Source: Gemmatimonadales bacterium (GTDB taxonomy: Bacteria; Gemmatimonadota; Gemmatimonadetes; Gemmatimonadales; GWC2-71-9). Taken from it: a DNA stretch of 64,000 bases. The translations under genes and the position numbers were made by a program. Position 1 is the first letter of the stretch; each line of letters opens with the position of its first letter. Below, piece after piece: positions 27,913-57,454 of this stretch. The stretch is from the NCBI GenBank assembly GCA_036265815.1, contig DATAOI010000037.1, forward strand, positions 1-64,000. The letters run 5' to 3'. The notes beneath the pieces are model-generated. The model searched no databases. It saw only the letters and a list, made by a program, of their open reading frames with translations, and was not told where the DNA came from.

Positions 27913-28338
27913 CTATCCGGCGCTGTGCTCCCGGGCGGCCGCGCGCCGCATGACCGTCGCGACCAGCAAATATGCCTCGCTCCACGCCTCCCGCACCTCG
28001 GCGGTGAACGCCTCGCCCAGTCCCTGCTCGAGAGTCCAGAGCAGCGCAGCGCCAACCGAGGGATAGTCGGCATCCTTCACGCCGTAGTGGGTATGCCGCC
28101 GGCCGAGCGCGGCCACTTCGGAGACCAGATCGGCCGGCCGGTCCAGGGAATGGACGATGCCATCGAACATCCGCATCAGCTTGACTTCCTGCAACGCCAT
28201 ATCGGTGCTCGCGAAGAGCCGGCGCGCCTCGGGATCGAGCTCGAATAGCCGATCGTAGAATTGCGCGCCGGCGTCTCGCACCGCCGGCGCGAACCGGGCC
28301 CAGCTCTCACGAACGAGTGCCTGCTGCTCGGGTGTCAT
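27913..28338 (-). CDS. Single-domain globin
   Basis: 141 aa, ATG with GGAGGTGG. Helix A pattern LVRESWARFAPAVRDAGAQF, CD region YDRLFELDPEARRLF, and the proximal (F8) His in ALGRRHTHYGV, then the G/H helices (GAALLWTLEQGLGEAFTAEV, AWSEAYLLVATVM). Length and motifs fit flavohaemoglobin-type or neuroglobin-like single-domain haemoglobins, which bind O2 or NO. No reductase domain. The distal E7 position appears to be Gln. Confidence 0.9.
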   Translation of the reverse strand: MTPEQQALVRESWARFAPAVRDAGAQFYDRLFELDPEARRLFASTDMALQEVKLMRMFDGIVHSLDRPADLVSEVAALGRRHTHYGVKDADYPSVGAALLWTLEQGLGEAFTAEVREAWSEAYLLVATVMRRAAAREHSAG

Positions 28339-28458: not shown

Positions 28459-28974
28459 CTACCTGCCACGCGCCGTGAATCTGCCCGAGGCGGACATCTC
28501 CCGGTCCTCCGTTGCGGGGTCAGCCGCCGTGAAGCCGGTGGCGGCCAGCGTGAAGCTGCCGGTCAGCAGCGTGTCGGAAGCGAAATCGATCCTGAGCGTC
28601 CCCGACTGGGCCCGGAATACGCCGGTGGGCCGCTCAACCGCACCCAGCATGACCAGCGCCTGCAGGTCATCGGAGCCGTCGCCGCGGTCCGAGATGGTGT
28701 AGGTGCCCAAGCTCAGGCGGCTGCCACTGGAGCGGGTGAAGAGGATGGCTCCCTGCGCGCTACCTTGGCCGAGGTCCAGGGTGAACACTGTCGGCGCCCC
28801 GATGCCTCCTTCGACCCGGGCGAATGTCGCATCACCGGAGAGCTCCACGGCCGCGGCACCGGTGAGCCGGGCCGTGAACGCCCGGGTACGGTGCGTGGCG
28901 GGCACGACTCGCGCGAACGCGGTCAGCGAGACGATCGCCATCAGGCCCAGTCCGGTCACCAGCACGATCTTCAT
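28459..28974 (-). CDS. Secreted beta-rich protein
   Basis: 171 aa, ATG with AAAGGAG. Signal peptide (VLVTGLGLMAIVSLTAFA). The mature part is beta-rich (FTARLTGAAAVELSGDATFA, GTYTISDRGDG, DTLLTGSFTLAATGF, ASGRFTARG) without cysteines. The family is not recognised but this pattern recurs in exported proteins of soil bacteria. Its promoter region carries three 11-bp repeats adjacent to the divergent SARP gene, so it is the likely target of that regulator. Confidence 0.75.
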   Translation of the reverse strand: MKIVLVTGLGLMAIVSLTAFARVVPATHRTRAFTARLTGAAAVELSGDATFARVEGGIGAPTVFTLDLGQGSAQGAILFTRSSGSRLSLGTYTISDRGDGSDDLQALVMLGAVERPTGVFRAQSGTLRIDFASDTLLTGSFTLAATGFTAADPATEDREMSASGRFTARGR

Positions 28975-29057
28975 ACGACAGCTCCTTTTAGTTGAGGTGT
29001 GCGACTGGACCGCCGCGCGTCATCGCGCCCGGTTGCCGCCCGGGATCACGGTGCCTA

Positions 29058-29099
29058 GTATATGAGCGGCAATCACGCGGCAATCACCTCCAAATCACC
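29058..29099 (-). promoter_or_regulatory. Predicted SARP operator and promoter of the secreted-protein gene
   Basis: Minus-strand -10 TATACT (29063-29058). Immediately upstream are three direct repeats of GTGATT (AATCAC on the plus strand at 29071, 29082, 29093), spaced exactly 11 bp. This matches the SARP binding rule of short direct repeats one helical turn apart, close upstream of a -10. The divergent gene encodes a SARP-type DNA-binding protein. Confidence 0.6.
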
Positions 29100-29108
29100 T
29101 CGCGCAAC

Positions 29109-31742
29109 GTGTTACGCGTCCACACTTTGGGAAGGCTGCACGTCAGCCGCGCCGAGGGCGCGGTCAGCGGGTCGGCGGCGCAGCCGAGGCGGCTGGCCGT
29201 CCTTGCCCTCCTTGCGTCCGCCGGAGAGCAGGGGCTCACCCGCGAGAAGCTGCTGGCCTATCTCTGGGCTGAGGCCGATGAGGAGCGGGCACGCCGCGGC
29301 CTCAACCAGGCGCTTTACGCCCTACGGCAGGACCTCGGCTCCGACGACATTTTCCTGGGAACCAGGCACCTGCGGCTCAACGCCGAGCTGGTCTCCAGCG
29401 ATCTGGCGGAGTTCGGGCAAGCGCTGGCTGTCGGCAAGCTGGAAGACGCGGCGGCGCGCTACACCGGTCCGTTCCTGGATGGATTTCATCTTCCCGGTGC
29501 GCCCGAGTTCGAGCGCTGGGCGGAAGAGGAGCGAGCGGACCTGGCCCGGAATTACGCCCAGTCGTTGGGCAAGCTGGCCAGCCGGGCGGAGAGTCGAGGC
29601 GATTGGACTGAGGCCGTCGGCTGGTGGCGGAAGCTGGCGGCGCAGGACCCGCTGAACGCGACGGTCGCGCTGAGCCTGATGCGGGCGCTGGCCGCCGCGG
29701 GCGACCGGGCCGGCGCACTGCAGCACGCGCGGATCTACGAGGTGCTGCTGCAGCAGGAGCTGGATTCGCCGCCCGATCGGGAGGTGGTGGCTCTTGCCGC
29801 GGAGCTTCGGGCGGCGGAGACCACACCGCCGCCGCCGATGCCACGAGTCAAGCCGGAGCCTGTCCCAGTGGCGGCGGAACCCGCGCCGGCGTCGATGCCT
29901 GGTCCTCCCGAGCCGGCACCGATGCCCGCTCCCGAGGTCGTGATCGCGGGAGCTGGCGTCCCGGGAGCTCGCGCCGGCCTGCGGCGCGTGACGATAGCCC
30001 TGGCTCTGCTCCTCACCGGCGCCGCTGGCGGCCTCTATCTCCGAGCCCGCCCGCCAGCGGAGCTGGTACCCGGCCCAGCCCATCGCGTCGCGTTCGACGA
30101 ACGACTCGAGCTCGATCCGGCGCTGTCGCCGGACGGCAAGATGATCGCCTACTCTGCGGATGATGGAACCCGCTTCCAGATCTTCGTGAAACAGGTCGCC
30201 GGCGGTCGCGCCGTGGCGGTGACGCAGGAGCTGCCGGGGTCCCACTGGCGACCGCAGTGGTCACCGGACCGGAGCCGGATGGCGTTCCAGGCGGGCGGTC
30301 GGATCTACGAAGTCCCGGCCTTCGGCGGGGTGCCCCGCGTGCTGGTCGAGCCGGCGCATCCGGGGAGCTGGGTGGCGTCGGCTGCCTGGTCGCCGGACGG
30401 CCGGGCAATCGCCTACGTCGAAGACTGGGCCGTGTATCGCCGGGCCATCGGCGGCGGCCCGGCGACGCTGCTCTGCCGGCTGGCAAACGCCCACTCGCTG
30501 GCCTGGTCACCCGATGGCAGGTGGATCGCGCTGGTCTCCGGCAACCCCGGTTTCATTTTTGGTGAGTCCCCCTGGGGGAGCTCGACCAACCTGGGCAACA
30601 TCGCGCCCAGCTCGATCTGGATCGTGCCCGCAGCGGGCGGAAACCCGATCCGAATCACCGACGATCAAGCGCTCAACACCAGCCCGGTGTGGCTGCCCCA
30701 CACCGCAGGGCTTCTCTTCGTCTCCAATCGAGAGGGGAGCCGCGATGTCTACCGGGTGGACCTGAGCGGGGCAGGAGTGCCTGCAGGTGAGCCCACTCGA
30801 CTGACCACGGGCCTCAGCGCCCACAGCATCAGTCTCTCGGCCGATGGGAGGGCACTGGCGTATTCCGTCTTCTCCTACACCGCGAATATCTGGTCGCTGG
30901 ACATTCCCGAGCACGGCGAGGCTGCCGAGGCTGGCGCCAGGCCGTTCACCGAGGGGACTCAGATCATCGAGGGGATCAGCCTGTCTCCGGACGGCCGCTG
31001 GCTGGCGTTCGACTCCGATCGCGATGGGAACCAGGATGTCTACAAGATGCCGATCGGCGGAGGCGAGGCGGAGCAGCTGACCGACTCGCCGGACGATGAG
31101 TTCGTCTCGACCTGGTCGGGGGATGGGAAGGCGCTGGCGCTCCACTCCTATCACGCGGGCAGCCGCGGACTGCGGCTGGTGCCGGCCGATGGCGGGCGGC
31201 CCGTCGAGGTGGTGCGCTGGCCGCCCAATCAGCGATCCCCCGGCTGGTCGCGGGATGGACGCGCACTGGTGTTCACGTCCGACGTGACAGGCGAGCTCCA
31301 GCTGTTTCTGGTACGGCGCAAGTCCGACTCCACCTGGGGCACCGCGCGGCAGCTCACGACCGCCGGCGGCTGGGCTGGAAGGTGGTCGCCGGACGGACGC
31401 TCGATCGTCTACTGCCGCGCCGACGGAGTCTGGCTGATCGACGATCAGGGGCGGGGGAATCGGCAACTCTTCGAGGCCGGCGACTCCGGCAGCCCCTCGC
31501 CCGAGCTGGCACTCTGGAGCCCCGACGGCCGCACGATCTATTTCAAGGCGTTCGACGCGGCAGGGTCGTCCAGCCTGTGGGCGATCTCGCCCTCGGGGAG
31601 TGCGCCCCGGCTGCTGGTGCGCTTCGACGACCCGAGCAGACCCTCCAGCCGCCCCGAGTTTGCCACCGATGGCAGGCGGTTTTTCTTCACTCTTGGCACC
31701 CGCCAGAGCGACATCTGGGCGATGGAGCTCCGGCGCCGCTGA
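29109..31742 (+). CDS. Membrane-anchored SARP (BTAD) regulator with TolB-type beta-propeller
   Basis: 877 aa from GTG 29109, where SARP similarity begins; the frame is open to 28992. Winged-helix domain (about 1-90: RRLAVLALLASAGEQGLTRE, LLAYLWAEADEERARRGLNQ), bacterial transcriptional activation domain (about 95-235, TPR-like), Pro-rich linker, one TM helix (VTIALALLLTGAAGGLYL) and a long propeller with repeated SPDG blades (LSPDGKMIAYSADD, WSPDGRAIAYVED, SPDGRWLAFDSDRDGNQDVY). The layout is ToxR/CadC-like, with DNA binding inside and a sensor outside. No ribosome site precedes the GTG. Confidence 0.82.
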   Translation: MLRVHTLGRLHVSRAEGAVSGSAAQPRRLAVLALLASAGEQGLTREKLLAYLWAEADEERARRGLNQALYALRQDLGSDDIFLGTRHLRLNAELVSSDLAEFGQALAVGKLEDAAARYTGPFLDGFHLPGAPEFERWAEEERADLARNYAQSLGKLASRAESRGDWTEAVGWWRKLAAQDPLNATVALSLMRALAAAGDRAGALQHARIYEVLLQQELDSPPDREVVALAAELRAAETTPPPPMPRVKPEPVPVAAEPAPASMPGPPEPAPMPAPEVVIAGAGVPGARAGLRRVTIALALLLTGAAGGLYLRARPPAELVPGPAHRVAFDERLELDPALSPDGKMIAYSADDGTRFQIFVKQVAGGRAVAVTQELPGSHWRPQWSPDRSRMAFQAGGRIYEVPAFGGVPRVLVEPAHPGSWVASAAWSPDGRAIAYVEDWAVYRRAIGGGPATLLCRLANAHSLAWSPDGRWIALVSGNPGFIFGESPWGSSTNLGNIAPSSIWIVPAAGGNPIRITDDQALNTSPVWLPHTAGLLFVSNREGSRDVYRVDLSGAGVPAGEPTRLTTGLSAHSISLSADGRALAYSVFSYTANIWSLDIPEHGEAAEAGARPFTEGTQIIEGISLSPDGRWLAFDSDRDGNQDVYKMPIGGGEAEQLTDSPDDEFVSTWSGDGKALALHSYHAGSRGLRLVPADGGRPVEVVRWPPNQRSPGWSRDGRALVFTSDVTGELQLFLVRRKSDSTWGTARQLTTAGGWAGRWSPDGRSIVYCRADGVWLIDDQGRGNRQLFEAGDSGSPSPELALWSPDGRTIYFKAFDAAGSSSLWAISPSGSAPRLLVRFDDPSRPSSRPEFATDGRRFFFTLGTRQSDIWAMELRRR

Positions 31743-54810: not shown

Positions 54811-57454
<2,644 letters not shown>

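Follow-up and report, generated by a model that had tools for sequence, protein, structure and literature searches.

SARP-type regulators are known as switches for antibiotic genes in Streptomyces. The window analysed here, a stretch of 64,000 nucleotides from a Gemmatimonadales bacterium (contig DATAOI010000037.1, positions 1 to 64,000), carries a gene for such a regulator, and three identical hexamers are located between it and the divergently oriented gene of a predicted secreted protein. This arrangement raises the question which protein binds the hexamers and which genes are controlled from them.

Three direct repeats ahead of a -10 element

On the minus strand, the element reads from 29098 to 29057 as GTGATTTGGAG GTGATTGCCGC GTGATT GCCGCTCA TATACT. 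Its three GTGATT repeats (29093 to 29098, 29082 to 29087 and 29071 to 29076) are all perfect and follow each other with a start-to-start distance of exactly 11 bp. The second is placed roughly at the -35 position, and the third is separated by 8 nt from TATACT (29057 to 29062, minus strand), the putative -10 element of the secreted-protein gene, which is found at the same place in the related genome G041 (L051). A preliminary description of this DNA had recognised the repeats on the minus strand and their 11-bp spacing, and both are confirmed at precisely these positions. It had also named the TATACT hexamer correctly, but the distance of the last repeat is 8 nt instead of the 7 nt given there, and the bounds of the site move from 29058-29099 to 29057-29098.

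A search of the window for AATCAC-N5-AATCAC with at most one mismatch retrieved two matches, both of them part of this GTGATT site; 100 shuffled versions contained 0.05 on average. No sigma70-type -35/-10 pair was detected by a scan of positions 28950 to 29200, and the hexamers upstream of TATACT share only 0 to 2 positions with TTGACA at distances of 16 to 18 nt, 4 at 15 nt and 3 at 19 nt. On the plus strand, positions 29057 to 29062 appear as AGTATA (inside TAGTAT), so that this -10 element might be shared by the two divergent promoters.

The predicted target is a secreted protein of 171 aa with an N-terminal hydrophobic signal (28459 to 28974, minus strand; a sequence-based prediction), which has no family match in Pfam or NCBIfam. 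Its start codon is the ATG at 28974, preceded by the Shine-Dalgarno-like AGGAG at 28982 to 28986 (minus strand). A globin gene (27913 to 28338, minus strand; Pfam Globin 5.5e-15) follows on the same strand after 120 nt and is possibly the second gene of an operon.

The adjacent gene encodes a SARP with a predicted membrane helix

The regulator gene (29109 to 31742, plus strand) encodes 877 aa and starts with the GTG at 29109. A longer frame reaching back to 28992 was judged to be spurious, because the relative in G041 also has a GTG at the equal distance of 10 nt from its first repeat. Pfam, hydropathy, structure models and Foldseek together outline a winged helix (about residues 1 to 95), a BTAD domain (104 to 234), a membrane helix (289 to 313) and a PD40 propeller (about 318 to 877). 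The BTAD match (PF03704, residues 104 to 234) reaches 48.8 bits with a cut-off of 22.1, the match to Trans_reg_C (23.0) stays under its cut-off of 26.2, and the PD40 repeats are recognised by Pfam. Hydropathy indicates one membrane helix with its peak at 293 to 312.

AlphaFold models of the regulator contain a TPR-like helical part, the helix 289 to 313 and the propeller, and the DNA-binding part is modelled with low to moderate confidence. The winged helix predicted there, at the same low-to-moderate confidence, consists of strands 2-5, 9-14 and 17-19, helices 26-41, 45-52 and 58-76, and strands 81-83 and 87-90. With residues 1 to 254 as query, the top Foldseek matches were AfsR (8k60/8hvr, in a transcription complex) and EmbR, and just six matches had values of 0.001 or below, all of them AfsR or EmbR. 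A profile search of solved structures led to the same two proteins (EmbR, 2.2e-6; AfsR, 0.002). The single-sequence search returned designed TPR and other designed proteins only; the EmbR/AfsR match required a profile. A receiver domain, the hallmark of OmpR/PhoB response regulators, is absent from the Pfam and NCBIfam matches of the protein. Its assignment to the SARPs, with an OmpR-type winged helix followed by BTAD, is well supported by these predictions, and the predicted membrane helix between the DNA-binding and the outer domain would place it among the transmembrane regulators. The BTAD match and the Foldseek hits to AfsR and EmbR thereby bear out the preliminary claim that the adjacent gene encodes a SARP-type winged helix.

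Conservation of the locus in relatives

Relatives of the secreted protein are present in 8 of 101 genomes searched, the genome of the window counted. Their upstream regions were compared with the exception of the minus-strand cases L050, L053 and L056. In G041 and G040, the coordinates show that the relative is also divergent to a SARP gene. The G041 site consists of GTGACT, GTGACA and GTGAGT in 11-bp register, with the last unit 8 nt before TATACT, and it is two units (22 bp) longer than the site of the window; in G040, GTGACC and GAGACC are followed after 8 nt by TATCCT. The first 30 nt past the -10 element (29027 to 29056, minus strand), the start of a predicted leader, are strongly conserved with G041, and 28 of 36 positions are identical from the -10 element onward (-10 counted). 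Conservation in this stretch exceeds that of the repeats. The SARP most closely related to that of the window is likewise encoded in G041, and this genome contains two further GTGA triples, on C77 and C119 (L071, L078), at distances of 31 and 69 nt from downstream genes whose N-termini are signal-like.

The GTGA pattern had no match in any of nine relatives of the same genus. A family-wide search of 102 genomes yielded 19 matches, spread over 15 of them, versus 2 in the control; four of the 19 stem from the host genome, and L066, L068 and L072 look like simple runs. Since several matches are of this kind, the GTGA core is not a family-wide trait. Another match (L067, G033:C67:15911-15952) is an exact GTGA triple with a -10 element that points toward a SARP-like gene starting a few nt past it, the opposite of the usual direction. 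Two named Gemmatimonadota loci (L083, L084) have no strict site; in L084, GTGATC, GTGACC and GTGAGA can be seen by eye at 11-bp spacing, with no TANNNT at the right distance.

Recurrence of the element in the host genome

The host genome (4.59 Mb) was searched with the reversed pattern as control. GTGA-N7-GTGA-N7-GTGA-N10-TANNNT with up to two mismatches occurs five times and its reversal not at all; three matches are exact (this site included), one has one mismatch and one has two. A tighter pattern retrieved the same best four sites. Each is located 62 to 82 nt ahead of an ATG, and the N-terminus encoded there resembles a signal sequence or that of a lipoprotein. The three distal sites, on contigs C5, C45 and C42, precede genes for lipoprotein-like PD40 proteins by 62, 63 and 75 nt, and Pfam identifies all three products as PD40 proteins. 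The 79 PD40 repeat matches of the genome fall into roughly 35 open frames (hand count of the listing), so that three PD40 targets out of three far exceed chance expectation. No SARP gene was seen beside the three distal sites, with the C42 site at a contig edge. The stretches around eight further PD40 matches contained no new good site: the one good match was the already known C5 SARP site, and a second match was weak (score 12).

The preliminary description had suggested a genome scan for GTGATT-N5-GTGATT near -10 elements. At one mismatch this pattern has 11 genome-wide matches versus one in the reversed control. The matches on C34, C44, C78, C87 and C92 were discarded by eye for lack of a -10 element at the right distance. 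On C24 (position 2680, L010), GTGAGA, GTGATT and GTGATT with 11-bp spacing are followed after 9 nt by TATCGT, a candidate that may be a fifth site of the regulon.

An 11-bp geometry of SARP genes as a class

The host genome has 14 BTAD matches. We compiled 87 SARP upstream regions in which the match starts near the N-terminus and room is left upstream, including those of the host genome's other SARP genes (13 of the 14 BTAD matches; the one on C2 was omitted at a contig edge). Three 6-mers counted as a strict site if they scored 14 or more identities out of 18 and TANNNT followed 7 to 9 nt further on. Such triples were found in 17 of the 87 regions at a spacing of 11 bp, in one at 7 bp and in none at 8 to 10 or 12 to 16 bp, and shuffles of the regions had a mean of 0.1 and a maximum of one 11-bp triple. 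Sixteen of the 17 point away from the SARP gene and one toward it. In a held-out set of 60 SARP genes from other genomes, for which the test had been fixed beforehand, 12 regions had a strict site at spacing 11 and none at any of nine other spacings. Eleven of these sites point away and two toward the gene, as one of the 12 regions has both. The orientation of 34 held-out regions passed an automatic check, and inspection by eye showed for each of the remaining 26 that the expected frame opens with a SARP-like start. The 11-bp pattern is accordingly associated specifically with SARP genes in two genome sets. A strict away-pointing site is absent from 120 of the 147 regions, hence either the pattern is not universal or the criteria are too stringent.

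In 76 of the 147 SARP regions, the divergent gene was judged to start like one for a lipoprotein or a protein with a signal sequence. The proportion was 17/27 with and 59/120 without a strict site, which is not significant (p = 0.21), and the idea that the site predicts a secreted neighbor was dropped. Random segments of the window had such starts in 24 of 600 cases, an imperfect control because these segments are not promoter regions.

The core of the repeats varies with the SARP. The site described here has GTGATT. Six SARPs whose recognition helix contains LEQ have mostly GTGAG, three with LRQ have TAACG, and TTGACC and CGACAC belong to two more SARPs of the host genome. Core and helix thus appear to vary in rough step; this link is suggestive only, because the members are related and because L253 and L254 combine LRQ with GTGACG-like repeats. 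A paralogous SARP on C1 adjoins GTGAGC repeats (L235), which are close to the GTGAGT and GTGAGC repeats present at the distal sites on C5 and C42.

Function of the repeats and alternative explanations

We consider a SARP operator the likely function of the three repeats: the product of the adjacent gene would bind it and activate the divergent gene as well as the distal PD40 lipoprotein genes. The reasons are the exact triple, the 8-nt gap, the copies in the genome, the class-wide recurrence, the corresponding gene pair in G041, the AfsR/EmbR match and the lack of a notable -35 element. Less favorable are the 120 regions in which no strict away-pointing site was detected, the non-significant link to secreted neighbors, the GTGAGC repeats beside the C1 paralogue, the missing GTGA pattern in the nine relatives of the genus, the reversed direction of L067 and the limited model confidence for the DNA-binding part. 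The same evidence supports the preliminary reading as a SARP site, which is very probably right. Among the 14 BTAD proteins, the adjacent SARP would be the cognate regulator.

Its protomers would sit side by side on the 11-bp repeats before the -10 element and hold sigma region 4 in place of a -35 contact, a sigma adaptation like that of AfsR. If transcription starts about 7 nt past TATACT, repeat 2 (at about -37 to -32) and repeat 3 (at about -26 to -21) would by calculation fall inside the two units of an afs box, and repeat 1 would hold a third protomer. In the passages of PMC10936776 on this promoter, the afs box is described as two 11-bp repeats centred at -29.5, and a dimer of the SARP forms the bridge to sigma region 4. 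Binding would switch on the secreted-protein gene, perhaps also the globin gene behind it, and the same regulator would switch on at least three distal PD40 lipoprotein genes. The protein would be anchored in the membrane with its PD40 propeller outside, where it presumably senses something. Binding probably also lowers the expression of the regulator itself, because the repeats are located 10 to 38 bp before its own start codon.

The site might instead be read by another regulator, either a paralogous SARP of the host genome or a response regulator of the OmpR/PhoB type. OmpR/PhoB-type response regulators also bind 11-bp direct repeats, and one of the 14 BTAD genes, as mentioned, lies beside GTGAGC repeats. 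Moreover, the PhoP box overlaps that of AfsR in Streptomyces, where PhoP competes with AfsR for the afsS promoter (excerpts of PMC10972967). We nevertheless regard another regulator as unlikely, given that in both gene sets this repeat geometry recurs next to SARP genes as a class and that the cores seem to follow the recognition helix; a response regulator is further disfavored by the lack of a receiver domain in the neighboring protein. The position of the repeats inside the probable leader of the SARP gene would also suit a site that mainly represses this gene, as a roadblock or by covering its promoter and start, while the neighbor is not activated. This is very improbable, since almost every detected site has its -10 element at 7 to 9 nt on the flank that faces away from the SARP gene, and since the element also precedes PD40 lipoprotein genes beside which a SARP gene was not seen. 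Chance repetition in a G+C-rich intergenic stretch is hardly credible: short repeats do arise in this way, and an 11-bp triple of score 14 is also present at 56894 of the window, but the shuffle, reversed-pattern and spacing controls exclude it.

With the repeats read as an operator of the adjacent SARP, the new elements are a membrane-anchored, PD40-fused SARP outside Actinobacteria, a predicted regulon of PD40 lipoproteins and an operator geometry of phylum-wide occurrence, and Gemmatimonadota, to which named relatives of the N-terminal part of the regulator also point, are a new host group for the SARP promoter geometry. A literature search combining Gemmatimonad with SARP, BTAD or the full family name found no paper on such a system. 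That a second phylum has this geometry, with a membrane-anchored SARP and next to the gene of a secreted protein, points to a mechanism of greater age and wider use than the regulation of antibiotics. The dozens of SARP genes flanked by repeats of their own lend themselves as material for working out a SARP recognition code, and the regulon of PD40 lipoproteins provides testable biology for an uncharacterised sensor. We tentatively go one step further, with a proposal that may well prove too broad: the membrane-anchored SARPs of the phylum could be a large one-component class, each with its own core, that activates a divergent secreted-protein or lipoprotein gene with AfsR-like geometry, the secreted product might feed back on the outer (e.g. 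PD40) domain, and the covariation of helix and core could yield a recognition code.

Comparison with known systems

Usually, although this does not strictly define the family, SARPs control secondary-metabolite clusters of actinomycetes. The neighbors of the regulator gene in the window are genes for a secreted protein and a globin. Classical small SARPs recognise a TCGAG core, which was not found at the window site. EmbR of Mycobacterium tuberculosis has the winged helix and BTAD in common with the regulator of the window, as judged by sequence profile and structure, but it is soluble and carries an FHA domain. ToxR and CadC resemble the regulator in the single predicted membrane helix between the DNA-binding part and the outer domain; the SARP/BTAD module sets the window protein apart from this type, and a word search in the main text of PMC10269533 found mention of neither BTAD nor SARP. 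The sites of ActII-ORF4 and DnrI, several of which also have three repeats, are located in Streptomyces antibiotic clusters, unlike the site described here (excerpts of PMC10972967).

The promoter rule for SARPs given in parts of PMC10936776 comprises direct repeats 11 or 22 bp apart, a 3' repeat 8 bp from the -10 element and a poor -35 element. The window site has 11-bp repeats, the 8-nt distance and a poor -35 element, and the initial statement that SARPs bind direct repeats near the -10 element agrees with this rule. AfsR of Streptomyces coelicolor, as portrayed in the same source, differs in its core, CGTT(T/C)ATCG in two repeats versus GTGATT in three, in its NOD and TPR parts, which contrast with the membrane helix and PD40 propeller, and in its target, which is predicted to be a secreted protein here. 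Its SARP domain is nevertheless the best structural match of the window regulator, and both systems share 11-bp repeats over the -35 position and a weak -10 element 8 bp past the 3' repeat.
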